From assembly GCA_035578155.1 (NCBI GenBank), contig JAPWDM010000003.1:25114416-25178415 (forward strand): a DNA stretch of 64,000 nucleotides. Reading direction: 5' to 3'. The number at the start of each line of letters is the position of its first letter. Position 1 is the first letter of the stretch. This document shows positions 19,900 through 64,000 of this stretch, piece after piece. The translations under genes were made by a program, and so were the position numbers. The stretch is from Brachynemurus nebulosus. Lineage: Eukaryota; Arthropoda; Insecta; Neuroptera; Myrmeleontidae. Below the pieces are notes generated by a model. The model had not been told where the DNA came from. It saw nothing but the letters and a program-made list of their open reading frames with translations, and ran no database searches.

Positions 19900-19970
<71 letters not shown>

Positions 19971-20836: not shown

Positions 20837-20924
<88 letters not shown>

Positions 20925-21085
20925 CTCTAATTAAGTACGGAAACATTAAATGCGAGGTGAATTTAAATTGAAAAATAATCATTCTAAAATAATAGTTTTT
21001 GTTATCAGAGATTTCTTTCAGAAATAACTTCATTAATATATAAATGTCAAAACTGTTCGGACATAGGAGCTTTTACCCTATTAAT
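20837..21085. repeat. (AT)n tract joined to a partial MITE (GCTTTTAC family)
   Basis: (AT)n covers 20837-20922. The following sequence to about 21085 is a partial copy of the MITE at 36815-37066: shared blocks include ATTAAATGCGAGG, AATTTAAATTGAAAAA, AATGTCAAAACTGTTC and GGAGCTTTTAC. The left terminal repeat appears to be replaced by the microsatellite. Confidence 0.65.
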
Positions 21086-21888
21086 TAATAAAAAAATTGC
21101 GAAAAAATACATTTAACCACCTGGGTAATTCATGTATATATGAAATAAAATTAAGCAATTTTGTTTACAACAAAACAAAAAACGTTACATTTCGTACATT
21201 TAACTCGATTTTTGGTTGCTTTTGGCTTTGCAGCTTTCTCGTCGATGAGGAATGTAATGGTGAGCTATCTGCAATTGAAAATAACTCTTTATTGCATTGA
21301 ACCATCGGTATGTTTTTCATTCAAAGTACGTTGATACCTCATTGCAATAGTCAGTTGTCTTCAAATTCTGTTCTAAATCATCGTAAAATTTTATCGAAAT
21401 TTACCAAAAGGTATAAGAGTTATCAAAATTCCATCCTGTATACATATATAATGATTTGTTTACTCAAAAAATTCCTAATGTTTTTTTTTTTTTTATATCT
21501 GTGTGACCAATACATACACATTTTTCTTTCTCTCATTCGAATCAGCAGTGTATGTTTAATTTCAATTGTGCTCGAATGGACATATTTTTTAAAAAGATAT
21601 GTTATCCTTACTAAATAACAAAAATAAATTCAAAATTATCCTTAATTGTCAAATTCTTCAATGATATAATATTTATTCTACAGAATTGCCAAAAAAGCAC
21701 TTAAATAATTAAATTAATTTACTATTTATATTTTTTCACTTCCTGATTTTTAACATGGCCGTACGTACAACAAGATCAACATAAAAGAATAAACTTGGAT
21801 ATATTAAAAAATTTTGAATTTATACAACTGAACTTTAAAACAAATCAAAAAAATAAAAAATAAAGATTTGATATAATGAAAAAATAAA
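21086..21888. other. No gene seen
   Basis: AT-rich, with a T-run near 21480-21495. Short open frames have no recognisable content. Confidence 0.35.
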
Positions 21889-23386: not shown

Positions 23387-23443
<57 letters not shown>

Positions 23444-23566
23444 CATTTTTTTTTTCTACATATTCGTGTTCTACGGGTCCGAAAACGGATAGCGCCCCTA
23501 CTCTCGCCTCTCGCAGCTCTTATCGTATAGACTGTATAAGTCTAATTTTTCGGAGAAAATTCGACT
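21889..23566 (+). mobile_element. HINE-like element, copy E (intact single copy)
   Basis: Uninterrupted 1,678-bp copy and the best reference for the family. The 5' stem CCGTGA...TCACGG is at 21891-21916, a subterminal TAGTCGAATTTTC follows, and the 3' end is a terminal hairpin closing in TTCGACT. Internal degenerate repeats of ~160 bp have AAATTTCAGCCCTC-type anchors at about 22568, 22725, 22888, 23050 and 23331. (TA)n covers 23391-23438. It is flanked by A-rich tracts. No ORF is supported. Confidence 0.75.
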
Positions 23567-26500
23567 AAAAAATGTTCACGTAACTGGACAAAATAACGTG
23601 TCAGGACTTTACTACTTCTTTTTTTATTTAACGGTCCGGACTCAAGAGGTTAATCAAAAAAAGTTTGTGACAAGGAAGGAAGAAAATTTTCTTCCCCGTT
23701 CAATCACGGATAAATCTTCGCTTAAGTGACGAAAAATTGCCAGATTTCTCACAATTTTAATAATTCGCTGCTGATACATACTATACGCACACATAGCCAA
23801 TGCCATGGCCCGTGAGTATATTCTTGAAAATTTCGTGTTCGTCACGATACGAGTCTGTGACGATCAATATTTGTGAATATGAATGAACCTTTATAATCTA
23901 AATTTTGCTACAACCGCCAAAGTTGCGAACATAAATTTTGTAATTTATAACAAATAAACAAACAGTTTATTAGATAATGTCAGAATGTTTTGTATAACAA
24001 GCTTATAGCAGACTATGCATGTACATACCTATATCTATTATTACTTTTTAAATTTAATAAAATTATCTATTTATTTACTAGATTTCGCTTGGGGCTTTCC
24101 CGGTAAAATGATGATAAATATATAACACGATTACGAGAATAAGTCCCAGTAGAATATAACAGACCGATACATATACTATACCAGTGTTTCTCAACCACCA
24201 GTCCGCGGACTAGTATCGAGGTATTTAACAGGTCCGCAGAAAGATGTCTGAAGTTATTCATTACAATTTTTATTTTAAGTCAACCAATAAAAAATATATA
24301 TTTTAACATCGTCATTTTTAAAATTCCAAAAAATCGTTGTAAAACTCAGTGTTAGACTTATGATTTTTGCGGTCCCATTTATACACCTGTCTACACCTAA
24401 CTGTTGAATTTATTAGAATGTTTTACTTCTAATCAAGGCAATGCTTTGTCTTTTCACATGTGTGCAACTATTACATCAGTTTTGTCTACTAAGCCTATAT
24501 TTAGGCCTCTAAATTATTATGTTTATTAAATCATAATAATGAGCTTTACTGTGAGTTGATTTATAGATAATATTAAAGTTTTCCCCGTAAGGATGCACAG
24601 ATACAGGTTTCCTTTAAGGACCCACATATATTGTTGGTCCTTAAAGGAAAAAAAGTTATTACTTTGTATTACGATTATAAAAAGATCTTGTGTCGTGTTA
24701 AATTTCACTTTTAAATAAATTTAATTTTTTCTCAATTTAGAATTTTTTCGTTGCAGAATCCCTTTGAGCTGGTCTACATACTAGGAAATTCGGTGATGAT
24801 ATTCTCGGGTGATTAAAAAAATTTTATTCTCAGTAGGAACTATAATATAGTATTTGAAATATTTAGTTAAAATATTTCAGTTACTGTGTACCGTGTATTT
24901 TTCTGTGAAAAATGAGTTTCTAATTTTGCATGGAAAATCTATGAAACTGCTAACATTCGACTTTTTACGACTTAATTGAGTTTAATGGTGTTTTGAGTAG
25001 TTTACCAGTAAAAATTGCCTAAATTAGAAGAATTCGTACTAATAAATTCAATAATATTTTAGAAATTTGCAAACTGAAATTTAAATATTGATCTTGTCCG
25101 CCCAAAAGAATTCACTGAAAAAAGTTTGAGAAACGTTACATTATACTAATAATTGTATACCCGTGTAATCTTATTTTAAATTGTAATTACTAATATTTCT
25201 CGGAAATATTTTTAATTAATTTTGAATCCTTCGAGTAAAAATTTCATCAAAGGTTGTTCAGCAAACCAAAACGACTAATTTCTCTTCATTTTTAATGTAC
25301 CTGATAGCTTGCACATTGTTTCAGAGATTTTACTGTTTTAGTTAAAAATAAACAATCAACTACCTATAGCTGTTCTAAATTCAATTAAGAAAAATCGAGA
25401 AATGAAAGAAAAGAGTTACGTAAGTTATTTACTCGTTAAATTAAGATAAAAGTTTACCTCTATTGTTTTGTTGAAATTGTTGTCTAGTACAGTGCTTAAA
25501 CTCAATTATTTATTTTTTTATTTTTATTTTTAGATGAAAACTTTATAGTTTTCATGTTATCAAATAATCTTGGACTGAAGGAAAGCCAATTATCTGTCAC
25601 AGACTTTAGATTAGTGATTGTTTTTCGAAAAAAAAAATTCACTGTTACGATAGAAATTATCACTGAAATGCTGACGTTAAAGTAAATAATTAATTTTTCT
25701 GTCAAAATGTTTTCTAGTATAAAAAGAAACTACAAAAATAAAACTTAGTTGTTGTAAGTAACTTGAAGTAATACAATATTTTCAAATAAAATTCTGAAAA
25801 TCTAAATCAAAAACATGTACTATATATAGGTACTTAAAAAAAATTATGATTAAAAAATTTAATTTGAAAATAATACCATAAAAATGTTTCTCAAAATAAA
25901 TATTACCGTTTATTCCTTGTGTTTTTTTGGTAAACACATTTAGAAGATAAATATTGTTGGAAAACTTTTTACACACTGCGAATGGAAAGCGACACATAGC
26001 TTCCTCGTACTCTTAACAGTCCAATTTGAACTTTTATCCAATCTTTAGGGTGATTTTGTGATTGCTTAAAATAAGAATAATTTTAAGACAAGGATAGGAT
26101 GAACTGCCTCTTTTAACTTTTTCTAATCAGCTATATAACTATGGAAATTACTGCGTAGATTTAGTTTCTTTAATATCAAATCAATCAGTAGAAAAAAGTT
26201 AAATAAATCAATAAATTATTAGACGTTCTAAACTGTCCAATACTGTCCAGTAAGTACATTTAAAGTAAACAATTTCCTATTAAATAATGAGACATGTTGC
26301 CCCATTCACATTATATTTAATTTAAACTTAACTACAGAGGCAGCGCAAGACTAAAATGGAAATTATGCAAAATGACTTTTGCGAGGCCCTCTTTTATTTT
26401 CAAAAATTTTTTCCTAAATTTGTTTTGCGAGGTTTTTTTTTCTGAATTTTTTAATGAATTTTTCTGAAATGTAAAACAAAACTTTTTTAACTACTCAACA

Positions 26501-44559: not shown

Positions 44560-44809
44560 TGCCTTATTTTATCCAAAATTTGCTCATATGACAGAATAAG
44601 CAAATAAGTTTTGATTCCCTTGTCACAGAATTCTTCCCAAAATACATTCATTTAGTTGAAAAATTTCTTTACTATCTACTTACTGAAAGATAATTTAGTT
44701 GGAAAATCAAATCTTAATCAAAACTTAATTCTGTTTTGAATTTTGGCTTAACATTACCCTAGAATAAATATTTTTAGATTAAAATTTGCTATACCTTAAA
44801 TAAAAAAAA

Positions 44810-46298
44810 ACGCCGTGAGTAGCGGAGCCCCATCACGGAAGTCGAATTTTTCCTTTCATCTTCGGTATTGAGTGTCTACAAGCGAAATATAATTGAAAGT
44901 CCACAAGCGATTTGTAATTTTGGTGGTTTCAAAACTGATGATGAGTGTCCGGTTGATCGGGGCTTTAAAAAAAGGTTTTTAAGGGCTGAATCTCAATAAA
45001 TTTCAATTTTGTGCCGATAGCAGTTAACAGGGAAAAAGCCAACACAATTCGTACGAGGGCATTTCTATCCATGCTTATCCGCCAATTGCCTTTGTGTTTT
45101 ATTTTTAAATATTAAAAAAGGAACTTAAATAGTAAACTGGAAGGCTTTTATGAAGATATTTTTTCTTTCCAAAAAAATCCAAAATTTCTATTTTATAAAT
45201 AATAAAAATCCAAAATTCCTAATTTATAAATAAACAGTGACTTTAATAACATTTTCAAATTACTTAATATGTATGTATTTCATTTGTTAAAAAATTGTAT
45301 TCACTTTTTTTTAAATTTTTTTAAATTACTATTCGCCTACTTGTATTCAGAATAAAAGTAATGCATTTAAAACACATTTAACAATAGCATTCAATTCCGA
45401 TGTAAAAATGGAAGAAGTGGGGGGAAAAGTAACGTGGACTCCCTAAAAGGTACTAGCTGGATACTAACTGAATACACGTACAAAATTTCAGCCCTCTAGG
45501 TTTCCTTAGAGAGTCTCTAGACGTGTTAGAAAACAAGCAAAAAAATTAAGGAAATATTGGCGTAAAAATCGTGGGGGTAAGGGTTAAAAGTTGAAACCCC
45601 CAAAAAACAGTGTCTGGCTATTAGCTTAATCTGTACACAAAATTTCAGCCCTCTAGGTTTATTTGGGGAGATTTTGACCCGAACGAAACTGTTAAAATAC
45701 AAGAAAAATCATGTTCTTTTGGGTATAAAAATGGTGGCGGTAGGGTTTGAAAGTCGAGACTCCCAAAAGGCACCCCCTTGATACTAACTCAATCCGAATA
45801 CAAAATTTCAGCCCTCTAGGTTTATTTGGGTGACCTGTGCGAGTGGTACAAACTTCGAAAACGTCGAAAATGCATGAAATTGTAGCTTAAAAATGAGGGG
45901 GGTGGGGGTAAAATATTAAAACCTCCAAAAAGCACAACCTAGGTACGAACTTTATCAACACACCAAACTTCAACCCTCTACGTTAATTCTGGGGGGCTGG
46001 GGGCCTGTTAGATCCAGCGAAAATCGTTTTTCCCCCCTCTACTCCCGCCAAATCATCCTAGGAAGCCGAATTTTGGATATGTTGTAGATAATTGACCGAA
46101 ACATTATTTCCAACCGGTTTGGAAAAGTTTATTGCTTTCCGCCCCCCACCACCCCCTTAAAAGTTGGGTCGGATCAAAAATTTTCCCAAAATTTGACCCC
46201 ACTTTGATAGTATGGGGTGCCTCAAAAATGAGCCCCATTTACCAAATTTCATCTCTTAACTTCCATAGGGGGGCCCTACACAAATTAAAAGGTGGCGG

Positions 46299-46342
<44 letters not shown>

Positions 46343-46465
46343 CATTTTTTTTTTACATATTCGTGTTCTACGGGTCCGAAAACGGATAGCGCCCCTACTC
46401 TCGCCTCTCGCCGTTCTTGTCGTATAGACTGTATAAGTCTAATTTTTTCAAGGAAAAATTCGACT
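44810..46465 (+). mobile_element. HINE-like element, copy F (older, diverged)
   Basis: Full-length 1,656-bp plus-orientation copy with the same start (CGCCGTGAGTAGCGGAGCCC) and end (AAAAATTCGACT) but many more substitutions than copies B-E. (TA)n at 46300-46338 is the shortest of the family here. No coding capacity. Confidence 0.75.
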
Positions 46466-47888
46466 AATAAGTATTCAGAAGGTCATGTTTTTTCTAAGAA
46501 CTAAATCACAACAAGTCATTATAAAATAAGAGTATATAAATTAACAGGGTACTAAGTTGTAACTTTTAAGTTGGGTAGATAAACTTTGCTTTTAATATTA
46601 TCTGCGTTAAATTAATTTTGCCTTAGGTATGCTATTACTCTTTTCCATTGTTGAAAAGGTTTTGAAATAATTATGTAATAAAAGTCCATACGGCTATACT
46701 CCAGGGTCACAATTTAAAATATTTTCCATCATATAATAACGTTTAAAAAAGACATTATTCCTCCGACAATACGTAACAGGAACGACAAAAAAAATTTTAA
46801 CGTCTAGTTTTTGATTGAAACAAGAATAACTACGCAATATATGCAATGTTGTTGTTAAAATCATTCTCTTACCTTTTCTTTCTTGCCTTTTTTTTTCTAG
46901 AAAAAACAATTCACTTCATCGTATTAATGTAAATTTAATGTTTTTCGTTTTGCCTTTTTTTTTGAAAAATAACACAATAGAATTTAAATTACATATATCC
47001 CCTCAGTATTCCGGGTGACATTAAACGTTCACTTCAGTATATTAGTGCAGTTGGGCGCTACAGGGAAAATCTCACATTATTATTCAAAATTACCCACAAC
47101 AAAACGATGAATAAATTAGGAGCCGAAACGATTTTGTGTATCGTGTTCCGATATTTAAAATTTTCTGTAAAAGGAAATACTTATATGTGTGACATGAAAA
47201 AGGAACTGATAAAAAGAAATATTCGAGAGATAATTACATTTTGTTTCCTATTTTTCAGTTGGAGGAATCACAAATAAAGTAGATAATAAAAGATATTTTT
47301 AGAATAATATGCTTCAACTAACATGCTAAGCGAACTTTATAATCACTGGGCCAGTTACGTATTTAGGGATCTACACACACAAAATACTATTTTATTCAAA
47401 TTTGACTTAAATTTTATTCAAAACCTTTCATACGTGAAATTTGTCGGAATCTCAAAACTTCCGCAGATTATAAAGTGATTCTTAGGAAAGCAATTAATTT
47501 GCTTTTTTACTGAGCTTTTTTGCTTGTTTCACTCTTTTAACTAACAATAAGTGAAATATTCTAGGAAACGTAAAGGTTAAATGTTAGTTGTGTTTATATG
47601 TGTTGTGCATATTATGTTACACTCAAAAAAAAAAAAAAAAAAACGCTCATTGAGCCAAATGAAATAAGGTGTGTTGCTCTATCTCCTTCGTCGATTCAAA
47701 ATTGCAGAATACTTAAACGTTTTTTTAACTTATCATAATTGTCCGATACGATAAGTCTCGCTGGACAACTGAACAATTGTACGACTCGTGAGAAAAACAC
47801 CTTCATCTATTAAACTCTCTTGTAGAGGGAAGAAAAGACGCAAAATTTGAAATTTTATATTGAAAAATAATTTTTTTGTTGAAATAAA
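46466..47888. other. No gene seen
   Basis: AT-rich; an A-run near 47626-47643. No feature is supported. Confidence 0.35.
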
Positions 47889-48616
47889 ATTTTTGATGAA
47901 ACTTGATATATATGTATTACAAGCAAAAATAACAGACTCGTATTTTTTTTATCACCGTCGCCATTTAAGGGGTGAAATCACCCCTTAAAATTAGGGAAAA
48001 ATTTTAATTTTTCTTGATAACTTGAAAACGACGGCAGATAGAAAAAAAACTTTAAATTGACAAAACACTTTATTTTTAGAGGGCTTTCTATTGACGTGTA
48101 TAAATTCAGGGTCGAAGCTACTGGCGGGGCTGTAAAGCTAAAATTGAGGGTAAATTTTGAAATAGGGTGGATATGCTTTAGTATATTGAAATTTGAATAG
48201 CATATATGAAAACTGTATGAAAAATTCTAGTTTACCTGTTTTTGCTTAAAGTTGTAATTTAAAGTCTAAAATCTCAAAATTGGACAGCTAATTTGAGATG
48301 TCAATCGTAATTTTACTATCAGAAAAATAAAAATATTTCTATAAGGTTTTCAACAAATGAATTGTCTTATAATTAATAACTGGCTAAAATATATTAAATT
48401 ACACTTAACTTATACTTTAAATTTAATATAAGTAATATTAAAATTTGATTTTGTTAAGTCATGCGAGAATATTATTACATATAAAGAAAACAATTTTATA
48501 AAATACTTCTTTTTTATCAAATAATGAAGATAGGAAAATTTATTCTATGAAAGAAATTTGAAAATTTTCTTTATTAATAGGTACTTGATTCGTGAAGTGG
48601 TCAATGCCCAGCTTTT

Positions 48617-49082: not shown

Positions 49083-49168
49083 AACTAACTATATGGAATA
49101 ATTTTTTTTAAACTAACTATATGGAAAAAGTTTTTTCTACAACTAACTATATGGAATAATTTTTTTGC
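49083..49168 (+). repeat. Three ~29-bp tandem repeats
   Basis: AACTAACTATATGGA occurs at 49083, 49111 and 49141, each followed by a T-rich stretch, just outside the right arm of the surrounding element. Confidence 0.8.
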
Positions 49169-49753
49169 TTGGCTTAACAAAATCAAATTTTAATATTACT
49201 TGTATTTATATAAGAAGTTTTAGTCAGACATCAACAAGTATTATTCGATTCTATATTTTAGCCAGTTATTATACAAGACAAATCACTTGCTGAAAACCTT
49301 ATAGAAATATTATTATTGTGCTAATTATCAGTAAAATTACGATTCACATCTCAAATTACCTGTCCAGTTTTGAGAATTTAGTCTTTAAATTACAACATTG
49401 AGCAAAAACAGGTAAACTAGTATTTTTCATGCAGTTATCATATATATGCTATTCAAATTTTAATATACTAAAGCATATCCACCCTATTTCAAAATTTACC
49501 CCTAATTTTATCTGAACAGCCCCTCCAGTAGGTCCAACCCTGAATTTATACACATCAATAGAAAAATCTCTAAAAAGAAAGTGTTTTGTCAGTTTAATTT
49601 TTTTTCTATCTGCGTCGTTTTGAAGTTATCAAGCAAAATTTACCCTAATTTTGAGGGGTGATTTCACCCCTTAAATGGCAAAGGTGGCAGATAAAAAAAA
49701 ATACGGGTCTGTTATTTTTGCTTGTACTACACATATACCACGTTTCATCAAAA

Positions 49754-51949: not shown

Positions 51950-52466
51950 AGGTAAGAGCACCAGTGGCCGTCATGTTAAGACATGAGTAGGACTTTACAT
52001 TAAATTCAGGAATAATAACCGTCACTATGACGGTTACTGGAAAATGCTCGTATTTTACATATGTACTAGTAGCCACTATCAAAATAATAAATTTCTGTTA
52101 GGTGTTCTGGTCTAAAAACTATTTTTTAACAAAATTTAATTCATAATAAACCTCAAAAAACAAAAAAATATAACCAATTATACGTTAAACCAAAATTACA
52201 GTAAAATTAAATTGGTGCTTACCTTAGCTAAAACTTAAGAGTTTTAGTTAATATATGCAAATTTTACAAACACTAACTTTCAAATGAGTCATTATTATAT
52301 CTAATGCTAACAGAATGCTATCATAAAAATGGAATAACGGTTGGGCATACTTACCAGAACGTGTAGCAGGAAACGCAAAAGATTGCTTGCTTAGTGTCTT
52401 AATATTTATCATTTTACTGAAACTTGACGGCTATTGGGTCAATGACAGCTACTCGTGCTCTTACCT
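51950..52466. mobile_element. TA-flanked MITE (Tc1/mariner-type) abutting the giant palindrome
   Basis: The left end AGGTAAGAGCACCAGTGGCC pairs with the inverse of the right end, AGGTAAGAGCACGAGTAGCT (25-bp repeat, about three mismatches). TA flanks it at 51948-51949 and 52467-52468. At 517 bp it has no ORF. The giant palindrome was inserted across its right boundary, duplicating CCTTAA of which CCT is the MITE's own end. Confidence 0.75.
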
Positions 52467-52469
52467 TAA
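52464..52469. repeat. Target-site duplication CCTTAA (left)
   Basis: Direct copy of 62995-63000, immediately outside the inverted ends of the 10.5-kb palindrome. Six bp is the length made by Polinton/Maverick integration. Confidence 0.8.
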
Positions 52470-52599
52470 AGTAGTAGGAATATGGGCATTCGGAGCCCAC
52501 CTTCCCACCTGCCGACTTTTTGAGCGACCTCGGCAGGAGGCAAAACTACCGAGGCGGTTCTAGAAGCCTCCGGCGGTGGGTGGAGCAAAAATTTGGTCT

Positions 52600-52720
52600 C
52601 CAACCTAACGATATCTAGTGAAATTTTTTTCTAACCTAACAGAACCCTTGACCTAACCTAACGAAACCTAAGCGAACTTAGCTTAACCTAACAAAAGTTT
52701 TTTTCTAACCTAAGAACTGA
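52600..52720. repeat. CCTAA-rich subterminal tract (left; mirrored at 62744-62864)
   Basis: Repeated AACCTAAC / CCTAACCTAACG motifs separated by other bases. CCTAA is the complement of the insect telomere unit TTAGG, but here it is irregular and never more than two units in a row. Confidence 0.6.
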
Positions 52721-52733
52721 AAAATTCCCTAAC

Positions 52734-52850
52734 AGATGGCGCAGCCACCTTCGAGCCCTGTGAATTCGCTACTAGATGGCGCAGCCACCTTCGAGCCTGT
52801 GAATTCGCTACTAGATGGCGTTGCTAGTCTGGATTCCTGTGTGTAAGTTT
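52734..52850. repeat. ~40-bp subterminal direct repeats (left arm)
   Basis: AGATGGCGCAGCCACC opens units at 52734 and 52774, with a diverged third unit (AGATGGCGTTGC) at 52813; CTGTGAATTCGCTACT closes the first two. Such subterminal repeats are often binding sites for an element's own proteins; that role is inference. Confidence 0.8.
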
Positions 52851-52929
52851 GAAAAATTGTCAATAGATTGCATCGAAAACCTTTTTGATAGTTAAACTTA
52901 CCATTAAAAGATGGCCTTGCTTTCATAAT

Positions 52930-53210
52930 TTTATAATATTTTTATCTGAAAACAGGCTTAAACTGTCAGCTGACGTCACTAAAGGTAAACTGATATCAAA
53001 TAGCGAAGATTTCTCTCTAATATGCAAAAATGAATTTTATCATATGATTGTATATTTTTATCTGAAAACAGGTTTAAACTTGTATAAATTGCCAGCTGAC
53101 GTCACTAAAGGTAAACTGATATCAAATAGCGAAGATTTCTGTCTAATATGCGAAAATGAAGCAGCAGGTTTTAACCTGTATGGCTACATAAAGTGTGACA
53201 GCTGACGTCA
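52930..53210 (+). promoter_or_regulatory. Three CRE-containing direct repeats upstream of the 129-aa gene (left arm)
   Basis: The full palindromic cAMP-response element TGACGTCA occurs at 52971-52978, 53097-53104 and 53203-53210, each time inside CAGCTGACGTCAC (an E-box CAGCTG overlaps it). The first two sit in a ~120-bp direct repeat that also contains CTAAAGGTAAACTGATATC. The last CRE is 19 bp upstream of the TATA box. A 106-codon open frame runs through the repeats but is probably fortuitous. Confidence 0.75.
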
Positions 53211-53228
53211 CCATACTATTTTTTCTGC

Positions 53229-53260
53229 TATAAAAAGGACGCGACAGAATTTCATCAGTT
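53229..53260 (+). promoter_or_regulatory. Core promoter of the 129-aa gene (left arm)
   Basis: TATAAAA at 53229-53235 and an arthropod-type initiator TCAGTT at 53255-53260 (predicted +1 A at 53257), 28 bp apart. The leader to the ATG would be about 97 nt. Confidence 0.75.
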
Positions 53261-53353
53261 ACAATTTTGTTCGAAACTTTAGTGAAAAAAACATTAAACC
53301 TTATTGTTGTGAATTTTCAATTGTTGTGTGTTAAGAGTTAATTGTTGCCAACA

Positions 53354-53743
53354 ATGGAATCCATTACTGCTGGTGCTTCATCTGGAAACAGAGACTTAAT
53401 TCAAAAAATGGCTGGAAATTTTGTGGATGAATTGAATCATCTTGGCGCTGTTAAACGATGGATTAAACTTTCTGATATGGAAATTGGAAAAGTATATAAA
53501 ATAATGGGAGCCAGTCAACTACCATCGAAATTCGATTCATCGAAAATGAAGACAATATTGGAATTGGAAATTGGATACATTTCGTTACCAGCGAGATTTG
53601 ACAATTTGAGCGAGCAGATGCTGGCATGGTTGCAAAGCAATCCAAAACTTGGTATTATGAATAATGGACCCATTGGACTAACTCATAAATTGCAATTTAA
53701 AACGTTGGATCTTCTTGAAATCGTGGAGGATGCTGAATGGTGA
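53354..53743 (+). CDS. 129-aa protein of unknown function, possible OB-fold-like (left arm)
   Basis: I start it at ATG 53354 (context ACAATGG, a good Kozak match). The frame can be read four codons upstream from a TTG, but that is not a likely start. A charged N-terminal helix-like part (residues 10-35) leads to WIKLSDMEIGKVYKI (36-50), a block containing LELEIGYISLPARF (69-82) and a C-terminal block with NNGPIGLTHKLQF (103-115), ending EIVEDAEW. The alternating beta-strand-like segments around SLPARF and GPIG..H.LQF recall small proteins found in insect Polinton-type repeats that I take to be OB-fold-like single-strand DNA binders. That is inference; no catalytic motif is visible. No signal peptide or membrane segment. 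Followed by AATAAA at 53834. Identical in the right arm. Confidence 0.8.
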   Translation: MESITAGASSGNRDLIQKMAGNFVDELNHLGAVKRWIKLSDMEIGKVYKIMGASQLPSKFDSSKMKTILELEIGYISLPARFDNLSEQMLAWLQSNPKLGIMNNGPIGLTHKLQFKTLDLLEIVEDAEW

Positions 53744-53833
53744 ATTTTGTAATTTATTCTCTTCAAAATGTATTATTTAATTGTACTATGTATTTTAAAA
53801 ATTTCAATATTGTATCAATTTTTATATATATTT

Positions 53834-53839
53834 AATAAA
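53834..53839 (+). terminator. Poly-A signal AATAAA for the 129-aa gene (left arm)
   Basis: AATAAA 91 bp after the stop codon, followed by a long A/C-rich run (53840-53900). Mirrored at 61625-61630. Confidence 0.6.
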
Positions 53840-56053
53840 AAAAATTATAAAAAAAACAAAAAAACAAAAAAAAAAAAAACAAAACAAAAAAACAAAAAAA
53901 AATTTCGATTTTTTTTCAATACCCATCGCTAGACATTGATTTATATTCTAGTTTTGATTATGCCAGATTAATAAATAAACATTATTTGGTGTTTAATAAA
54001 AAATTTAAAAAATCGATTTTTCAATTCAGGTCTCGTCTCTAAATCACAATTTTTGAACTAAGTATAAATCAATAATACATATGAGTAATATTTGATATGC
54101 ATCGTATTATTAGGTTTTATGGTGAATAATTATAAAACAAAAAAAGATTTAATATCCCCTGAAAACGAAAAATTTAATTTTTCACATGCTTAATAAAAAT
54201 TATTTTTCAAGTTTAATAAAAATTATTCTTTATAAAATTGTCTATCAAATATTAGCCTTGCACATACATATAAGAAATGCTGATTTGCTAAAATATAAAT
54301 CTTGGAATGTGGATACATAATGTTATAAAAGTCCAATACGTTCATACATATGTATATATGAATATTACATTGTAATACAGGTATTCGCTATATCTATATG
54401 AATCGTGTTTAAAAGCCAAATTTATTTTCCTGAATTTTTTAAAATATATATATAGTAATATAATATTTCGCATATATACAGTACTCTGTTAAAAGTACGG
54501 GTTTCTACACCGTAAAAACATATATTTTACAATATCAATATATTGTAAAAAATCATATTTCTTAATATTTTTAAAACTGAATATGTAATATCAAGAATTT
54601 AAAACAGTTTTGAAACATTAATTTCTCCTCATAATATTTTTTTAGTCTTAAATTAATAGCACAATGTTCCATATATTTTAAGAAAATTTTTCTTTTAATA
54701 TTTTATAACTTATCTAAAAAATTTATAGCTATTTTTTATCCAAAAATTTATTACTTGCTATTGTTAAAAAATTAGTTAAATATATCTATAGGTATTAAGT
54801 GACCCCTAGTTTTGTGAAAGACGGTAGTAAGAGCAATTCATCTTAAATACGAAATTATTTTATCAATGCTAAATAAGCGTTTTTTTTCTCATATTATCAT
54901 ACTCCAATATATTGTATATTATTATAATTTATAAAAATGTGTTTTATTTATTAAAAAATTTAGCAAAATTTTAAATAATATCACGTCAAAATAATATTCA
55001 GAAGTCAATAAAAGACAATAGCAGTAAATTTATTAAGATAACTATAAATAAATATTAATCTAATGTTGAAATATTTATTAACAAATAGTACTGCTTAGTA
55101 GAAAATTAGGTACCTATTGTTTTGTTTTCAAATTTACCTTTTTGCAATTAAAGAAAATTTTAGTAACTATCGATACCTATATAAAACGATACCCATAAAA
55201 GACAAGCATGCTCTGATCTCAACAATTTTTTCCCATGTTAAATTTGTATGTTCTTACTTCGCTGAAACTTATTATGTTTATATATTCCCCCAATATTTTC
55301 TACCATAAACAATAGTTATAGCAAGCTAGGTAGGTATTGAATAAGTATTTTTTGTTTGTTAATTTATTGATGATAGAGAAAAAAAATTTATGATTTTATA
55401 GACAGTGAAATACATTTAAACTATTTTTTGCAGTTTAATTTTGTAAAAACACCTAAAAATTATCAGTCACAGACAAATATTTCTAAGCAAACGAATTGAA
55501 AATGTAGTTTTATATCATAAGAATAAATGCGTATATATAGGGTGGACAGTAAATAACTCTCATAATTTTTAAAGAGCGGATGAAAACTTTAATTTTGGAT
55601 TACGAAATTTTATTTTTTTTCCGGAGTTAAGCTGCATTCAATTAATTAACCCTTTCCTGCACAGCAGTTTTAGATCATTACTGTGCAAACGATACTTCAA
55701 ATTAGCAAATCATTAATAACATGGGTAAATACTTATTAGCAAGAATTACATAGCTTACACATATGTTCTATCGCACCAGAATGTTAATAGGACAATGCGA
55801 TTTAATTGCCTATATTCAGGAGCAAGCAAAAACATTACCTATTTTAATAACTTAGAAAATACACATTACATAGTTCGTTGTAAGAACAATCATTTCGGTG
55901 ATCTTTTTTTTTTTAACGAATTACTAAATTTGCTTAAGGACTATGGTATGTAAGAAATAACAACACTCACATAATTTTAAAATAATTAACATATAGCTAT
56001 TGGAAAAGTTACAAAGATTTTTTTAACAACTTATTAAATGCTGATAGCTTATT
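53840..56053. other. Intergenic spacer of the left arm (2.2 kb)
   Basis: AT-rich sequence between the two convergent genes. A 63-codon frame at 55117-55308 has no recognisable content. ACCGTAAAAACATATATTTTACAATATC near 54510-54540 is locally self-complementary. Nothing else is identified. Confidence 0.45.
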
Positions 56054-57187
56054 TTAATATCTCCTATAGGGCCTTAAGTATAACCCTTCACCCGAAATTT
56101 TTTCATCACCATCGCTGGCGACTGTATTCTCGTCATCATCAGCTTCTCCTTCGCTCGCAGTATCTTCGCTATCGCTAGTAGATGTTTTTTCATCATCATT
56201 GAATACATATTTTAACACTGGTTCAATAATATCATGCTTTTCCAATTCCCTGGTTATTGAGATAATCCGCTTTCCAATGTCACTTTCCTTTAAATTATTA
56301 AAATGGCTTCGTTTTTTCTCGTTTTCGATATAATCCGCGAAGCTGGGATTTATAATATGACTCCTTTCCATTAAATTGCACACAGTATTAACCATTTCTT
56401 CTCCAATTTGCGTCTGAGTCGCTAAACTTCTTAGTTCATCAACTAAATGGTTCGGGTCATCAAAATATTCTTCTCCATCAACAGGTTTCGAATGGTCATT
56501 ATGAAGGTTAGTATTTTCATCATCATATTTGAAACGTTTAGCTTCTCCATTTATTGAATTAGATGTTGAAGGTTGGTCCTTTTCTTCCGAATTTTTATCT
56601 TCTTGTTCTTCATCCTTTGCGCATGCGTTCTGAAGCTCTTTGACCATTAATATGTCTAGAGCAGTTTGTAAGAGACCAGCTATCTTTGGAGTAAAACTTG
56701 TTTCTTTGTAGTTATCAGGCGATGGTAAATGCTTTTGTTCATCAGATCGATTATCTTCGACATTTACCGATTGTAGAATATTATGCGAGTTTTTTAAAGC
56801 GTGGAATTTACTTCTGATTGCTTCTGCTGCAGCCATCATACTTTCATCAAAAGTATTCAAGTTTCTTTTAGATAGCTCTGTATCATTTTCGTGTTGATTT
56901 TGAAATACTGGTGCTTTATCTTCCTTTTCTTCATTTCTTGCTTCAAAACTATATTCGGTTTCATTATCATCATTTTCATCATTAGATTTTGACGATTCAC
57001 TTTGTCTCCTGTTCTCCGCGCTGTTCACTTGTGTCCCATTATTTACCGTGGTATATTCAAACTGATTATTTGCGATCTGGTCATTATTGTTTGTTTCATG
57101 TTCCTGAGTATGCACTCTTCTTTTCATATGACGTAAAAGAGAACTTCTCCGCGAAAATGTCTTGTCACAACGTATACAGTTAAACAT
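56054..57187 (-). CDS. C2H2 zinc-finger protein with acidic tail, 377 aa (left arm)
   Basis: A single C2H2 finger sits at the very N-terminus: C4, C7, H20, H26 in FNCIRCDKTFSRRSSLLRH followed by MKRRVH, with a basic linker. Residues 35-100 are polar, acidic and rich in N, E and S. A helical segment lies at 104-138 (AAAEAIRSKFHALK) and another at 166-190; a short basic cluster EAKRFK is at 215-220. A second helical part at 244-330 includes SLATQTQIGEEMVNTVCNLM, followed by a Ser/Asp/Glu-rich acidic tail (332-363) and a terminal RPYRRY. The layout suggests a DNA-binding transcription or replication factor of the element, perhaps acting on its own repeats; this is inferred. Differs from the right-arm copy at residue 52 (T here) and 172 (L here). 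Confidence 0.85.
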   Translation of the reverse strand: MFNCIRCDKTFSRRSSLLRHMKRRVHTQEHETNNNDQIANNQFEYTTVNNGTQVNSAENRRQSESSKSNDENDDNETEYSFEARNEEKEDKAPVFQNQHENDTELSKRNLNTFDESMMAAAEAIRSKFHALKNSHNILQSVNVEDNRSDEQKHLPSPDNYKETSFTPKIAGLLQTALDILMVKELQNACAKDEEQEDKNSEEKDQPSTSNSINGEAKRFKYDDENTNLHNDHSKPVDGEEYFDDPNHLVDELRSLATQTQIGEEMVNTVCNLMERSHIINPSFADYIENEKKRSHFNNLKESDIGKRIISITRELEKHDIIEPVLKYVFNDDEKTSTSDSEDTASEGEADDDENTVASDGDEKISGEGLYLRPYRRY

Positions 57188-57223
57188 TTTGATAGATGTG
57201 AAGAGTTCGATTTATAACATAAC

Positions 57224-57258
57224 ACTGATTAGTTTTTATATCGACATGATCTTATATA
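57224..57258 (-). promoter_or_regulatory. Core promoter of the zinc-finger gene (left arm)
   Basis: On the minus strand TATATAA (57258-57252) and TCAGT (57228-57224), about 31 bp from TATA to the predicted +1 A. The leader to the ATG is about 39 nt. Mirror of 58206-58240. Confidence 0.75.
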
Positions 57259-57284
57259 GTACAACCAGAGCAGAATTGACGTAA

Positions 57285-58179
57285 TGACACCAAAATGCAC
57301 CAAAGGTGCACCAAATGACACCAAACTGCACCAAAGGTGCACCAAATGACACTAAACTGCACCAAATGACACCAAACTGCACCAAAGGTACACCAAATGA
57401 CACCAAACTGCACCAAAGGTGCACCAAATGACACCAAACTGCACCAAAGGTGCACCAAATGACACCAAACTGCACCAAAGGTGCACCAAATGACACCAAA
57501 CTGCACCAAATGACACCAAAATGCATCAAAGGTGCACCAAATGACACCAAACTGCACCAAAGGTGCACCAAATGACACCAAACTGCACCAAAGGTGCACC
57601 AAATGACACCAAACTGCACCAAAGTTGCACCAAATGACACCAAACTGCACCAAAGGTGCACCAAATGACACCAAACTGCACCAAATGACACCAAACTGCA
57701 CCAAATGACACCAAAATGCACCTTTGGAGCAGTTTGGTGTCATTTGGTGCAACTTTGGTGCAGTTTGGTGTCATTTGGTGCACCTTTGGTGCATTTTGGT
57801 GTCATTTGGTGCAGTTTGGTGTCATTTGGTGCACCTTTGGTGCAGTTTGGTGTCATTTGGTGCAACTTTGGTGCAGTTTGGTGTCATTTGGTGCACCTTT
57901 GGTGCAGTTTGGTGTCATTTGGTGCACCTTTGGTGCAGTTTGGTGTCATTTGGTGCACCTTTGGTGCATTTTGGTGTCATTTGGTGCAGTTTGGTGTCAT
58001 TTGGTGCACCTTTGGTGCAGTTTGGTGTCATTTGGTGCACCTTTGGTGCAGTTTGGTGTCATCTGGTGCACCTTTGGTGCAGTTTGGTGTCATTTGGTGC
58101 ACCTTTGGTGCAGTTTGGTGTCATTTGGTGCAGTTTGGTGTCATTTGGTGCACCTTTGGTGCAGTTTGGTGTCATTACT
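57285..58179. repeat. Central 31-bp tandem array with orientation switch
   Basis: The unit is 31 bp made of three ~10-bp modules: ACCAAATGAC, ACCAAACTGC and ACCAAAGGTGC. The left half carries this strand, the right half (from about 57721) its complement. Each full unit contains the self-complementary 8-mer GGTGCACC. Some units lack the third module, and variants such as AAAGTTGC sit at different positions in the two halves. Because no stop triplet occurs and 31 is not a multiple of 3, all three outward frames are open for 85-176 codons; these are not taken as genes. The array lies between two divergent promoters and probably serves as a shared upstream or replication region (inferred). Confidence 0.9.
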
Positions 58180-58205
58180 TTACGTCAATTCTGCTCTGGT
58201 TGTAC

Positions 58206-58240
58206 TATATAAGATCATGTCGATATAAAAACTAATCAGT
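58206..58240 (+). promoter_or_regulatory. Core promoter of the zinc-finger gene (right arm)
   Basis: TATATAA at 58206-58212 and TCAGT at 58236-58240 (predicted +1 A at 58238), immediately outside the tandem array; leader of about 39 nt to the ATG at 58277. Confidence 0.75.
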
Positions 58241-58276
58241 GTTATGTTATAAATCGAACTCTTCACATCTATCAAA

Positions 58277-59410
58277 ATGTTTAACTGTATACGTTGTGAC
58301 AAGACATTTTCGCGGAGAAGTTCTCTTTTACGTCATATGAAAAGAAGAGTGCATACTCAGGAACATGAAACAAACAATAATGACCAGATCGCAAATAATC
58401 AGTTTGAATATACCACGGTAAATAATGGGATACAAGTGAACAGCGCGGAGAACAGGAGACAAAGTGAATCGTCAAAATCTAATGATGAAAATGATGATAA
58501 TGAAACCGAATATAGTTTTGAAGCAAGAAATGAAGAAAAGGAAGATAAAGCACCAGTATTTCAAAATCAACACGAAAATGATACAGAGCTATCTAAAAGA
58601 AACTTGAATACTTTTGATGAAAGTATGATGGCTGCAGCAGAAGCAATCAGAAGTAAATTCCACGCTTTAAAAAACTCGCATAATATTCTACAATCGGTAA
58701 ATGTCGAAGATAATCGATCTGATGAACAAAAGCATTTACCATCGCCTGATAACTACAAAGAAACAAGTTTTACTCCAAAGATAGCTGGTTTCTTACAAAC
58801 TGCTCTAGACATATTAATGGTCAAAGAGCTTCAGAACGCATGCGCAAAGGATGAAGAACAAGAAGATAAAAATTCGGAAGAAAAGGACCAACCTTCAACA
58901 TCTAATTCAATAAATGGAGAAGCTAAACGTTTCAAATATGATGATGAAAATACTAACCTTCATAATGACCATTCGAAACCTGTTGATGGAGAAGAATATT
59001 TTGATGACCCGAACCATTTAGTTGATGAACTAAGAAGTTTAGCGACTCAGACGCAAATTGGAGAAGAAATGGTTAATACTGTGTGCAATTTAATGGAAAG
59101 GAGTCATATTATAAATCCCAGCTTCGCGGATTATATCGAAAACGAGAAAAAACGAAGCCATTTTAATAATTTAAAGGAAAGTGACATTGGAAAGCGGATT
59201 ATCTCAATAACCAGGGAATTGGAAAAGCATGATATTATTGAACCAGTGTTAAAATATGTATTCAATGATGATGAAAAAACATCTACTAGCGATAGCGAAG
59301 ATACTGCGAGCGAAGGAGAAGCTGATGATGACGAGAATACAGTCGCCAGCGATGGTGATGAAAAAATTTCGGGTGAAGGGTTATACTTAAGGCCCTATAG
59401 GAGATATTAA
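58277..59410 (+). CDS. C2H2 zinc-finger protein with acidic tail, 377 aa (right arm)
   Basis: Mirror copy of the left-arm gene, transcribed away from the centre: same N-terminal C2H2 finger (C4, C7, H20, H26), same helical middle and same acidic tail. Only residues 52 (I here, T in the left copy) and 172 (F here, L in the left copy) differ over 377 positions. Both frames are intact. No AATAAA is evident soon after the stop; the nearest is about 435 bp downstream, so the transcript end is unclear. Confidence 0.85.
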   Translation: MFNCIRCDKTFSRRSSLLRHMKRRVHTQEHETNNNDQIANNQFEYTTVNNGIQVNSAENRRQSESSKSNDENDDNETEYSFEARNEEKEDKAPVFQNQHENDTELSKRNLNTFDESMMAAAEAIRSKFHALKNSHNILQSVNVEDNRSDEQKHLPSPDNYKETSFTPKIAGFLQTALDILMVKELQNACAKDEEQEDKNSEEKDQPSTSNSINGEAKRFKYDDENTNLHNDHSKPVDGEEYFDDPNHLVDELRSLATQTQIGEEMVNTVCNLMERSHIINPSFADYIENEKKRSHFNNLKESDIGKRIISITRELEKHDIIEPVLKYVFNDDEKTSTSDSEDTASEGEADDDENTVASDGDEKISGEGLYLRPYRRY

Positions 59411-61624
59411 AATAAGCTATCAGCATTTAATAAGTTGTTAAAAAAATCTTTGTAACTTTTCCAATAGCTATATGTTAATTATTTTAAAATTATGTGAGTG
59501 TTGTTATTTCTTACATACCATAGTCCTTAAGCAAATTTAGTAATTCGTTAAAAAAAAAAAGATCACCGAAATGATTGTTCTTACAACGAACTATGTAATG
59601 TGTATTTTCTAAGTTATTAAAATAGGTAATGTTTTTGCTTGCTCCTGAATATAGGCAATTAAATCGCATTGTCCTATTAACATTCTGGTGCGATAGAACA
59701 TATGTGTAAGCTATGTAATTCTTGCTAATAAGTATTTACCCATGTTATTAATGATTTGCTAATTTGAAGTATCGTTTGCACAGTAATGATCTAAAACTGC
59801 TGTGCAGGAAAGGGTTAATTAATTGAATGCAGCTTAACTCCGGAAAAAAAATAAAATTTCGTAATCCAAAATTAAAGTTTTCATCCGCTCTTTAAAAATT
59901 ATGAGAGTTATTTACTGTCCACCCTATATATACGCATTTATTCTTATGATATAAAACTACATTTTCAATTCGTTTGCTTAGAAATATTTGTCTGTGACTG
60001 ATAATTTTTAGGTGTTTTTACAAAATTAAACTGCAAAAAATAGTTTAAATGTATTTCACTGTCTATAAAATCATAAATTTTTTTTCTCTATCATCAATAA
60101 ATTAACAAACAAAAAATACTTATTCAATACCTACCTAGCTTGCTATAACTATTGTTTATGGTAGAAAATATTGGGGGAATATATAAACATAATAAGTTTC
60201 AGCGAAGTAAGAACATACAAATTTAACATGGGAAAAAATTGTTGAGATCAGAGCATGCTTGTCTTTTATGGGTATCGTTTTATATAGGTATCGATAGTTA
60301 CTAAAATTTTCTTTAATTGCAAAAAGGTAAATTTGAAAACAAAACAATAGGTACCTAATTTTCTACTAAGCAGTACTATTTGTTAATAAATATTTCAACA
60401 TTAGATTAATATTTATTTATAGTTATCTTAATAAATTTACTGCTATTGTCTTTTATTGACTTCTGAATATTATTTTGACGTGATATTATTTAAAATTTTG
60501 CTAAATTTTTTAATAAATAAAACACATTTTTATAAATTATAATAATATACAATATATTGGAGTATGATAATATGAGAAAAAAAACGCTTATTTAGCATTG
60601 ATAAAATAATTTCGTATTTAAGATGAATTGCTCTTACTACCGTCTTTCACAAAACTAGGGGTCACTTAATACCTATAGATATATTTAACTAATTTTTTAA
60701 CAATAGCAAGTAATAAATTTTTGGATAAAAAATAGCTATAAATTTTTTAGATAAGTTATAAAATATTAAAAGAAAAATTTTCTTAAAATATATGGAACAT
60801 TGTGCTATTAATTTAAGACTAAAAAAATATTATGAGGAGAAATTAATGTTTCAAAACTGTTTTAAATTCTTGATATTACATATTCAGTTTTAAAAATATT
60901 AAGAAATATGATTTTTTACAATATATTGATATTGTAAAATATATGTTTTTACGGTGTAGAAACCCGTACTTTTAACAGAGTACTGTATATATGCGAAATA
61001 TTATATTACTATATATATATTTTAAAAAATTCAGGAAAATAAATTTGGCTTTTAAACACGATTCATATAGATATAGCGAATACCTGTATTACAATGTAAT
61101 ATTCATATATACATATGTATGAACGTATTGGACTTTTATAACATTATGTATCCACATTCCAAGATTTATATTTTAGCAAATCAGCATTTCTTATATGTAT
61201 GTGCAAGGCTAATATTTGATAGACAATTTTATAAAGAATAATTTTTATTAAACTTGAAAAATAATTTTTATTAAGCATGTGAAAAATTAAATTTTTCGTT
61301 TTCAGGGGATATTAAATCTTTTTTTGTTTTATAATTATTCACCATAAAACCTAATAATACGATGCATATCAAATATTACTCATATGTATTATTGATTTAT
61401 ACTTAGTTCAAAAATTGTGATTTAGAGACGAGACCTGAATTGAAAAATCGATTTTTTAAATTTTTTATTAAACACCAAATAATGTTTATTTATTAATCTG
61501 GCATAATCAAAACTAGAATATAAATCAATGTCTAGCGATGGGTATTGAAAAAAAATCGAAATTTTTTTTTGTTTTTTTGTTTTGTTTTTTTTTTTTTTGT
61601 TTTTTTGTTTTTTTTATAATTTTT
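59411..61624. other. Intergenic spacer of the right arm (2.2 kb)
   Basis: Inverted copy of 53840-56053; AT-rich and without a recognisable gene. Confidence 0.45.
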
Positions 61625-61720
61625 TTTATTAAATATATATAAAAATTGATACAATATTGAAATTTTTAAAATACATAGTACAATTAAATAATACATTTTG
61701 AAGAGAATAAATTACAAAAT

Positions 61721-62110
61721 TCACCATTCAGCATCCTCCACGATTTCAAGAAGATCCAACGTTTTAAATTGCAATTTATGAGTTAGTCCAATGGGTCCAT
61801 TATTCATAATACCAAGTTTTGGATTGCTTTGCAACCATGCCAGCATCTGCTCGCTCAAATTGTCAAATCTCGCTGGTAACGAAATGTATCCAATTTCCAA
61901 TTCCAATATTGTCTTCATTTTCGATGAATCGAATTTCGATGGTAGTTGACTGGCTCCCATTATTTTATATACTTTTCCAATTTCCATATCAGAAAGTTTA
62001 ATCCATCGTTTAACAGCGCCAAGATGATTCAATTCATCCACAAAATTTCCAGCCATTTTTTGAATTAAGTCTCTGTTTCCAGATGAAGCACCAGCAGTAA
62101 TGGATTCCAT
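61721..62110 (-). CDS. 129-aa protein of unknown function, possible OB-fold-like (right arm)
   Basis: Mirror copy of the left-arm gene with the same protein sequence. ATG at 62110, stop at 61723-61721, then a poly-A signal on the minus strand at 61630-61625. It faces the right-arm zinc-finger gene (convergent). Identity of the two copies with no frame damage suggests recent duplication, copy correction or continuing selection. Function is as uncertain as for the left copy. Confidence 0.8.
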   Translation of the reverse strand: MESITAGASSGNRDLIQKMAGNFVDELNHLGAVKRWIKLSDMEIGKVYKIMGASQLPSKFDSSKMKTILELEIGYISLPARFDNLSEQMLAWLQSNPKLGIMNNGPIGLTHKLQFKTLDLLEIVEDAEW

Positions 62111-62203
62111 TGTTGGCAACAATTAACTCTTAACACACAACAATTGAAAATTCACAACAATAAGGTTTAATGTTTTTTTCACTAAAGTTTCGAACAAAAT
62201 TGT

Positions 62204-62235
62204 AACTGATGAAATTCTGTCGCGTCCTTTTTATA
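62204..62235 (-). promoter_or_regulatory. Core promoter of the 129-aa gene (right arm)
   Basis: Minus-strand TATAAAA at 62235-62229 and initiator TCAGTT at 62209-62204; mirror of 53229-53260. Confidence 0.75.
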
Positions 62236-62253
62236 GCAGAAAAAATAGTATGG

Positions 62254-62534
62254 TGACGTCAGCTGTCACACTTTATGTAGCCATACAGGTTAAAACCTGC
62301 TGCTTCATTTTCGCATATTAGACAGAAATCTTCGCTATTTGATATCAGTTTACCTTTAGTGACGTCAGCTGGCAATTTATACAAGTTTAAACCTGTTTTC
62401 AGATAAAAATATACAATCATATGATAAAATTCATTTTTGCATATTAGAGAGAAATCTTCGCTATTTGATATCAGTTTACCTTTAGTGACGTCAGCTGACA
62501 GTTTAAGCCTGTTTTCAGATAAAAATATTATAAA
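62254..62534 (-). promoter_or_regulatory. Three CRE-containing direct repeats (right arm)
   Basis: TGACGTCA at 62254-62261, 62360-62367 and 62486-62493; mirror of the left-arm control region. Confidence 0.75.
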
Positions 62535-62613
62535 ATTATGAAAGCAAGGCCATCTTTTAATGGTAAGTTTAACTATCAAAAAGGTTTTCGATGCAATCTA
62601 TTGACAATTTTTC

Positions 62614-62730
62614 AAACTTACACACAGGAATCCAGACTAGCAACGCCATCTAGTAGCGAATTCACAGGCTCGAAGGTGGCTGCGCCATCTAGTAGCAAAT
62701 TCACAGGGCTCGAAGGTGGCTGCGCCATCT
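62614..62730. repeat. ~40-bp subterminal direct repeats (right arm)
   Basis: Inverted copy of 52734-52850, with at least one substitution (GCAAATTC here, where the left arm reads as GCGAATTC). Confidence 0.75.
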
Positions 62731-62994
62731 GTTAGGGAATTTTTCAGTTCTTAGGTTAGAAAAAAACTTTTGTTAGGTTAAGCTAAGTTCGCTTAGGTTT
62801 CGTTAGGTTAGGTCAAGGGTTCTGTTAGGTTAGAAAAAAATTTCACTAGATATCGTTAGGTTGGAGACCAAATTTTTGCTCCACCCACCGCCGGAGGCTT
62901 CTAGAACCGCCTCGGTAGTTTTGCCTCCTGCCGAGGTCGCTCAAAAAGTCGGCAGGTGGGAAGGTGGGCTCCGAATGCCCATATTCCTACTACT

Positions 62995-63000
62995 CCTTAA
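62995..63000. repeat. Target-site duplication CCTTAA (right)
   Basis: Direct copy of 52464-52469, directly after the right terminus CCTACTACT. Confidence 0.8.
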
Positions 63001-63319: not shown

Positions 63320-64000
63320 TATCCATTTCAAATAATTCAGCTTTCTAAGAGTGAAAGATTTACAAAATCAGTTGAGTAGTTAATTTTTGGCGCTTTTTCG
63401 CAAAAGATGCTTGGCGCATATACCCATCTAAACTAATTTAGCTTTCTAAAAGTAAAAGAATTTTCAAAATCGGCTAGGTAATTTATTTTTGGTATATTTG
63501 GGACCCAAGACTCCGAACGGACTTTGTACAGCATAGTGCTATCCACCTAAAATAAGTTAGTTCTCTAGCAATGAGAAAATATTGAGAATCGGTTCGGTAG
63601 CTTATTTCTATCCTATATAATATAGGATATTTTATCTCTCTAACAGTAAAACTATTTTTAAAACCCGTTGTGTAGTTTTCTATGCCGCATTTGCATCCAC
63701 AGGACAGTTGTGAATCTCAGATAACATACTGTACTTATCTAAAATAGTTTACCTCTGCAATAGTGAAAAAATTTTCACAATCGGTCAGTTATTTTATTTT
63801 TGACACTTCTGGGTCCCATGGACTTTGACGGACATTACATAACGTAATCTATAACTATCTAAAATAGTTTAGCTCTCTAACAGCGAAAAAATTTTCAAAA
63901 TCGGTCGCTTATTTTATTTTTGACTTCTAGATCCAATGGACCTTAGCGGACCTTGCATGAGGTAATCTATATCTTTCTAAAATAGTTTAGCTCTCTAACA
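63320..64000. repeat. Degenerate ~119-bp tandem repeat running off the window
   Basis: The phrase AAAATAGTTTAGCTCTCTAA and variants recurs at about 63330, 63430, 63549, (63630, truncated), 63741, 63861 and 63979, each followed by a GAAAAAATTTTCAAAATCGG-like block and a T-rich stretch. Spacing is 118-120 bp in the better copies. No ORF. Confidence 0.75.

Follow-up and report, generated by a model that had tools for sequence, protein, structure and literature searches.

How does a 10.5-kb stretch of an insect chromosome come to read as its own mirror image, with the ends of a Polinton and almost none of its genes? The stretch lies within 64,000 nucleotides of the genome assembly of Brachynemurus nebulosus (contig JAPWDM010000003.1, positions 25,114,416 to 25,178,415; 'the window' below), and its features are listed in Table 1. 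We read it, with a probability of about 0.7, as the integrated form of a palindromic satellite resembling a defective-interfering genome, which a Polinton would mobilise and whose two arms would be equalised through a hairpin formed during replication. This reading is built on the sequence of the genome assembly. The element has ends and a gene in common with a complete Polinton of the same genome, belongs to a family of independent insertions with 6-bp duplications and arms that look homogenised, and has a candidate helper with many open copies.

A mirror-image element with two genes per arm

The first-pass annotation of the window had described a mirrored element with CCTTAA on both sides, and its boundaries proved exact. 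Each base from 52470 to 57285 mirrors its partner at a coordinate sum of 115464, with no indels and four mismatches (positions 52767, 56674, 57033 and 57285, the last lying at the edge of the central array). The claim that no net indel separates the two sides is true of the arms only, because the halves of the central array, with a unit of ∼31 bp, are similar but unlike in length and layout and are not mirror-perfect. Self-alignment of the element reaches 99.1% over 10,553 columns, so that a palindrome by chance can be discounted. Nearly the whole element is inverted repeat, its ends have the form (AGT)2...(ACT)2, and the DNA directly outside consists of unrelated flanks without mirror symmetry.

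Both arms, each ∼4.8 kb long, contain the two genes that had been proposed: a gene of 129 amino acids directed inwards (the small gene), and one of 377 amino acids, encoding a C2H2 finger, directed outwards from the centre (the zinc-finger or ZnF gene). The small gene was counted from the ATG at 53354; a 133-amino-acid version from a TTG is the same frame. Besides frames in the array and a 106-amino-acid frame derived from a repeat, these are the only open reading frames (ORFs) of the element. The annotation's view that polymerase, integrase, ATPase and protease are absent was upheld, as neither ORF matches any of them, and neither the ORF list nor Pfam showed the element to encode a PolB, an integrase, an ATPase, a protease or a capsid protein. 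Each gene lies downstream of a promoter-like segment in which a TATA element is followed, at a distance of 25–29 bp, by ATCAGT, which we take to be similar to the arthropod initiator; the segment of the small gene is also found in the complete Polinton.

For the 377-amino-acid protein, Pfam reported the C2H2 finger alone, below its cut-off, and in PHROGs the finger alone matched, to a family of unknown function. Sequence searches of the PDB gave one chance-level row (E 1.7) and otherwise no match, Rfam gave no match, and scans of IMG/VR found no relative of either window protein or of the capsid, integrase or PolB piece of the complete Polinton. Comparison with the proteins of that Polinton was more productive. 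ZnF residues 1–24 are similar to PolB residues 19–42 (46%), and the ZnF tail SGEGLYLRPYRR matches SGTGLYLKPYRR of the PLA2 protein at 10 of 12 positions. Two further stretches are collinear with Polinton protein cl23, with scores reached by 1 and 14 of 1,000 shuffles, these stretches having been picked after a first comparison. On the simplest reading, the ZnF protein looks like a chimera of Polinton proteins.

Table 1. Positions of the palindromic element, its parts and the complete Polinton (window coordinates unless a contig is given)
Feature	Position	Strand	Remarks
Palindromic element	52470-62994		mirror-image, 10.5 kb
Target-site duplication CCTTAA, left	52464..52469	.	right partner 62995..63000, perfect
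Left arm	52470..57282	+	starts AGTAGTAGG, a short terminal repeat like the Maverick ends described in PMC8097293
Right arm	58177..62994	-	mirrors left arm; 3 substitutions and 0 indels in 4,780 aligned positions
Central inverted tandem array	57283..58176	.	TGACACCAAACTGCACC-type units; left ∼440 bp, right ∼454 bp
Subterminal tandem repeat	52723..52820	+	40-bp unit, 2.5 copies
Three TGACGTCA sites	52971..53210	.	at 52971, 53097 and 53203; upstream of small gene
Promoter-like TATAAAA, ATCAGT 25 bases on	53229..53260	+	upstream of small gene
Small gene, left arm	53354..53743	+	129 amino acids; homologue at left end of autonomous Polinton
Small gene, right-arm copy	61721..62110	-	
ZnF gene, left arm	56054..57187	-	377 amino acids; C2H2 N-terminus, C-terminus SGEGLYLRPYRRY
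ZnF gene, right-arm copy	58277..59410	+	2 amino acid differences from left copy
Promoter-like TATATAAG, ATCAGT 29 bases on	58206..58240	+	upstream of ZnF gene
Complete Polinton (C1c)	G000:C1:121463582-121481545		17,964 bp (18 kb); duplication CTCGAG

Copies in the host genome and a complete Polinton

The host assembly comprises 960 Mb in 138 contigs. With window 52464–52864 (the duplication and the first 395 bp of the element) as query, the best 40 of 2,533 candidates were scored and resolved, by hand count, into 23 loci. Perfect 6-bp duplications flank 21 of the 23, including the complete Polinton, and all 21 sequences are different (seven were judged by eye from the flanks). At the other two the duplication is not perfect: C84b arose with C84a by segmental duplication and its left end is altered, and C1e directly adjoins another copy. 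Fifteen loci are palindromes with arms of at least 4 kb, one arm being interrupted by an insertion in C86 and C84d; two (C1b and C1e) have a palindromic interior but different end genes, and four (C2, C95, C45b and C1d) have shorter arms. The remaining two are the nearly monomeric C52, with an inverted repeat of only 215 bp, and the complete Polinton, C1c. The expectation that other palindromic copies with 6-bp duplications would end at the same bases, and that an autonomous relative would have matching ends, was thus borne out within this one genome.

Near-perfect palindromes are classic assembly artefacts, and the element might be a fold-back error. However, flanks are distinct and the duplication perfect in the window element and 20 others, the arms differ, the arrays are asymmetric, and palindromes of capsid genes (below) have duplications of their own. 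We regard an artefact as extremely improbable.

C1c was examined as two pieces, L043:1983-10000 for the left end and L040:1-9946 for the right. It encodes the full set of proteins expected of an autonomous Polinton, which the window element lacks: PolB (PF03175, 2.3e-29 on a 645-amino-acid piece, with no report for longer pieces), an integrase (rve plus chromo, 1.1e-13), a Pox_A32-like ATPase (4.5e-07), a protease resembling Ulp1 (PF02902, 0.0017, which falls short of its cut-off) and a double jelly-roll (DJR) major capsid protein (PF21738, 7.5e-121). There is also a PLA2 protein (1.3e-14), and a 232-amino-acid ORF without a Pfam match was labelled penton from its position alone. The left end bears the small gene and the right end a 170-amino-acid gene, cl2. 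The right end is 95% identical to positions 1–588 of the window arm, and the left end matches positions 22–1712 in blocks of 80–98%. The small genes of the window and C1c are 97% identical in amino acids; of the changes across their 129 codons, 11 are synonymous and 4 nonsynonymous (synonymous divergence, dS, 0.153; nonsynonymous divergence, dN, 0.013). The sharing of ends and a gene with a complete Polinton suggests that the Polinton spawns self-folding partners akin to defective-interfering genomes.

The long inverted repeats with tandem repeats inside them are similar to those of foldback elements, and the element could be an ordinary cut-and-paste transposon of that type, unrelated to Polintons. 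Its ends, its 6-bp duplication and a constrained gene are nevertheless common to the complete Polinton of the same genome, and we consider this explanation very improbable. No gene for a cut-and-paste transposase was found among the ORFs of the element; no search for such a gene was made in the genome.

The best 68 of 1,721 PolB candidates were scored. These copies are near-identical (96–100% in amino acids) and mostly open, 66 of the 68 being free of stops in the matched piece, which points to recent activity of the Polinton in the host genome. A scored capsid gene lies 8–13 kb downstream of 46 of them, and no two of the 68 lie within 20 kb of each other. For the ZnF gene, the best 109 of 3,412 candidates were scored (the scores being saturated) at 71 loci, where 38 pairs are divergent, with a median spacing near 2.3 kb, and one is convergent, 14.4 kb apart. 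No scored PolB was found within 20 kb of any of the 109 scored ZnF genes.

Capsid genes form palindromes too. The best 103 of 1,778 candidates were scored, at 85 loci, and at 18 loci two neighbours lie 5–12 kb apart, divergent in all 18. No scored PolB was found closer than 16 kb to any of these 36 paired genes. The only capsid palindrome read through, C58cap, has 4.48-kb arms that are 99.78% alike and each hold frames for cl2, the major capsid protein, penton and protease; one genome end is duplicated head to head here as in the palindromes with small and ZnF genes. Ends were sought at 11 capsid pairs with a script that took the best-matching pair of AGTAGT-like sites. A perfect 6-bp duplication was found at 7 of 11 and a mismatched one at 1 of 11, and at the other 3 no ends were found within the retrieved stretch. 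In C99 and C136, both among the seven, the arms differ inside the 150–162 bp compared. The proposal of a palindromic two-gene Polinton satellite is supported as regards the family and its candidate helper and is refined in its gene content: the small gene belongs to the Polinton, the large one is chimera-like, and palindromes with capsid genes exist as well.

Several copies have structures of their own. In C90, cl2 takes the place of the small gene in both arms, and in C1b and C1e cl2 is in one arm and the small gene in the other. C84a and C84b (L019-L022) are one palindromic insertion within a segmental duplication, with a common right flank and identical left arms. C52 (L037:4578-9400; duplication AACATA) is a near-monomeric satellite and may be either a deletion product or an ancestral form. 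A second array type, with a ∼16-bp unit and the frame KESLPK/SHSQK, forms the centre or loop of cl2-type and capsid palindromes (centre of L052 and L053; L031/L032, L039 and L041). A plain snap-back of the right end of C1c was considered as the source of C1d and dropped; the loop of C1d contains array and ZnF-tail sequence missing from C1c and C1d is therefore a recombinant.

Arm homogenisation and the explanations for it

Arm statistics were taken from 12 full-arm copies with three repeat stretches of the arm masked; C84b, being a duplicate of C84a, and the shorter-armed, end-asymmetric and cl2-type copies were excluded. Variants private to one copy were two-armed in 54 cases and one-armed in 32, variants common to at least two copies were two-armed in 18 of 18, and in a tree the left and right arms were sisters in 11 of the 12 copies. 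Among the 17 copies for which arm differences were measured, 14 had between 0 and 8. The terminal 35 bp vary between elements, and both ends are equal in 12 of the 16 elements compared (in C84c, C79a and C58 the ends are identical, and the mismatches counted there reflect a shift of one base). The four with unlike ends are the helper C1c, C1b, C1e and C84d. The central arrays are not homogenised: their median similarity was 0.934 within a copy (nine copies) and 0.933 between copies (144 comparisons), and C79a, C79b and C11 have one-sided arrays.

The switch site was readable in 11 copies and had nine different sequences. One sequence is common to the window copy, C67 and C1a, which differ elsewhere in both arms; the other eight all differ. 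This suggests that palindromes are, at least sometimes, inherited as palindromes. Had each been a fresh perfect snap-back, the arrays would be mirror-perfect, which they are not, and that candidate was set aside. The earlier proposal of a snap-back or head-to-head dimer is largely supported by these data, except that arm identity looks as though it is maintained by homogenisation and not by a new snap-back each time.

These observations also bear on the idea that the palindromes are dead-end by-products, one-off snap-back defective genomes made anew from the helper that never propagate as palindromes. The nine switch sequences, and the several kinds of palindrome (small gene with ZnF, cl2 with ZnF, and capsid genes), speak in its favour. 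It does not sit well with the switch sequence common to three otherwise different copies, or with arrays that differ within a copy when the arms do not. Moreover, with none of the 109 scored ZnF genes near a scored PolB, the scored complete elements could not have been the source of newly made ZnF satellites. We judge this explanation improbable.

A hairpin step was proposed because the arms are homogenised while the arrays are not: a repaired stem and an unrepaired loop could give this pattern. So could gene conversion in the chromosome, which acts between the arms of the large palindromes of mammalian Y chromosomes. Here the Polinton would mobilise the satellite and the arms would be equalised after insertion, with no replication hairpin. 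Gene conversion likewise predicts arms that are alike within a copy and divergent between copies, it would also spare arrays and unlike ends, and it may not yet have reached C45b (13 of 1,369 positions) and C84a (11 one-arm variants). On the other hand, all 18 variants common to several copies are two-armed, terminal variants are two-armed to the last bases in 12 of the 16 elements, and conversion would have to be fast to leave 0–8 differences in 14 of 17 copies. We think this explanation possible, though unlikely.

Several points weigh against equalisation through a replication hairpin, and against the satellite reading more widely, beginning with gene conversion as the main rival that could yield the same arm identity. 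C84a has 11 one-arm variants (C84b, its duplicate, also has 11 arm differences) and its arms are not sisters, and C45b has identical terminal 35 bp yet 13 substitutions in 1,369 arm positions. The two ends of C1c are unlike each other, in patches of 80–98%, so end homogenisation is not general. Unlike ends go clearly with unlike arms only in C1b and C1e, whose arms are of different descent (0.92% and 0.40%, respectively). C84d is marginal at 0.12%, with three substitutions between its arms and two or three to the nearest other copy; over the same 2.5-kb stretch, C122 and C84a, which are end-symmetric or have ends that were not compared, are nearer to other copies, and C45a ties. Constraint on the ZnF gene is weak, with dN/dS of 0.44–0.55 in the five comparisons between divergent copies; between the window and close copies there are 3–8 nonsynonymous changes as against 0–1 synonymous ones. 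The 129-amino-acid protein has no family match in Pfam, PHROGs or the PDB and, folded alone, gave a pLDDT (predicted local distance difference test) of 40.7 and no usable structure.

The rest of the window contains repeats of other kinds. A GIY-YIG ORF at 14329-14886 on the minus strand (PF01541, 9.2e-06), presumably Penelope-like, lies beside a cluster of 1.7-kb repeats, some direct and some inverted, that contains long (AT)n runs (14954-23578 and 44799-46477). A 472-bp unit is present in three tandem copies at 5928-7350, an inverted repeat of 84% identity is found at 47891-48483 and 49148-49753, ∼0.7 kb apart, and a 118-bp tandem repeat at 63736-64000 reaches the window end.

A proposed mechanism and its relation to known systems

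The satellite brings two Polinton ends that are identical, a single Polinton gene and the chimeric one; the helper would bring its protein-primed polymerase, its integrase and probably its capsids. That replication and integration are carried out in trans by helper proteins is inferred from anatomy. In a first step, a nascent or displaced strand with a Polinton end and the ZnF module would switch strands within a satellite array rich in inverted repeats, or two molecules of this kind would join head to head there. Either route would give a palindrome whose two ends have one and the same origin; what is observed is that centres differ and that there are two heterodimers. The polymerase would then jump back to start synthesis at the (AGT)2 ends, an idea put forward in PMC8097293 for vertebrate Mavericks with (AGT)2 ends and 6-bp duplications. 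The displaced single strand would fold into a hairpin with the arms paired as stem and the array unpaired as loop, and if mismatches in the stem were repaired before the strand was copied again, or while it was, the arms would become identical and the loop would stay untouched. Insertion of the linear DNA with 6-bp duplications, whose anatomy is observed, would be the work of the Polinton integrase. More speculatively, the ZnF protein may bring the satellite to the replication or packaging of the helper, given that it starts with a PolB-like finger and that its tail, GLYLxPYRR, is similar to the tail of the helper PLA2 protein.

It is conceivable, if doubtful, that the Polinton is in effect multipartite, consisting of the 18-kb full element and two lasting classes of ∼10-kb palindromes, one with the small gene and a ZnF adaptor for packaging or recruitment and one with capsid genes, which would replicate as hairpins folded on themselves and be co-packaged, so that the whole would be a segmented virus-transposon of palindromes. 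The mode of replication generally assumed for Polintons is that of protein-primed linear DNA, perhaps as viruses, and palindromes whose arms are equalised look like the marks that such replication, passing through a folded single strand, would leave in a genome. Palindromic satellites mark a helper with many open copies and offer a tractable system in which to ask whether replication, packaging and parasitism of Polintons still go on in animals; a search for one end copied head to head is a simple rule for finding such satellites elsewhere. No title on palindromic Polinton satellites was among those listed in a literature search limited to open-access papers.

Among known systems, the foldback elements FB and Galileo have similarly long inverted repeats with tandem repeats within, but they belong to other transposase families, have other duplication lengths and are not known to have a tie to a protein-primed helper. 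Invertron-type linear plasmids integrate with long inverted repeats, for which panhandle or racquet intermediates are invoked (PMC1864894). Terminal-protein replication and folded intermediates are thus common ground, whereas there it is the flanking organelle DNA that is inverted and not the element, and the replicon and host compartment are different. With adintovirus-like Polintons (Mavericks) the window element shares (AGT)2...(ACT)2 ends and perfect 6-bp duplications (PMC8097293). Subterminal sequence and the small gene are likewise common to it and the complete copy, but it is nearly all inverted repeat and lacks the genes for PolB, integrase, ATPase, protease and capsid. Palindromic defective adenovirus genomes and derivatives of linear killer plasmids are protein-primed linear DNAs in which two copies of one end lie head to head and which depend on a helper. 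The satellite proposed here would be like them in all of these respects; unlike them, it is chromosomal, is present in many copies, has a chimeric gene of its own and is apparently a lasting lineage.

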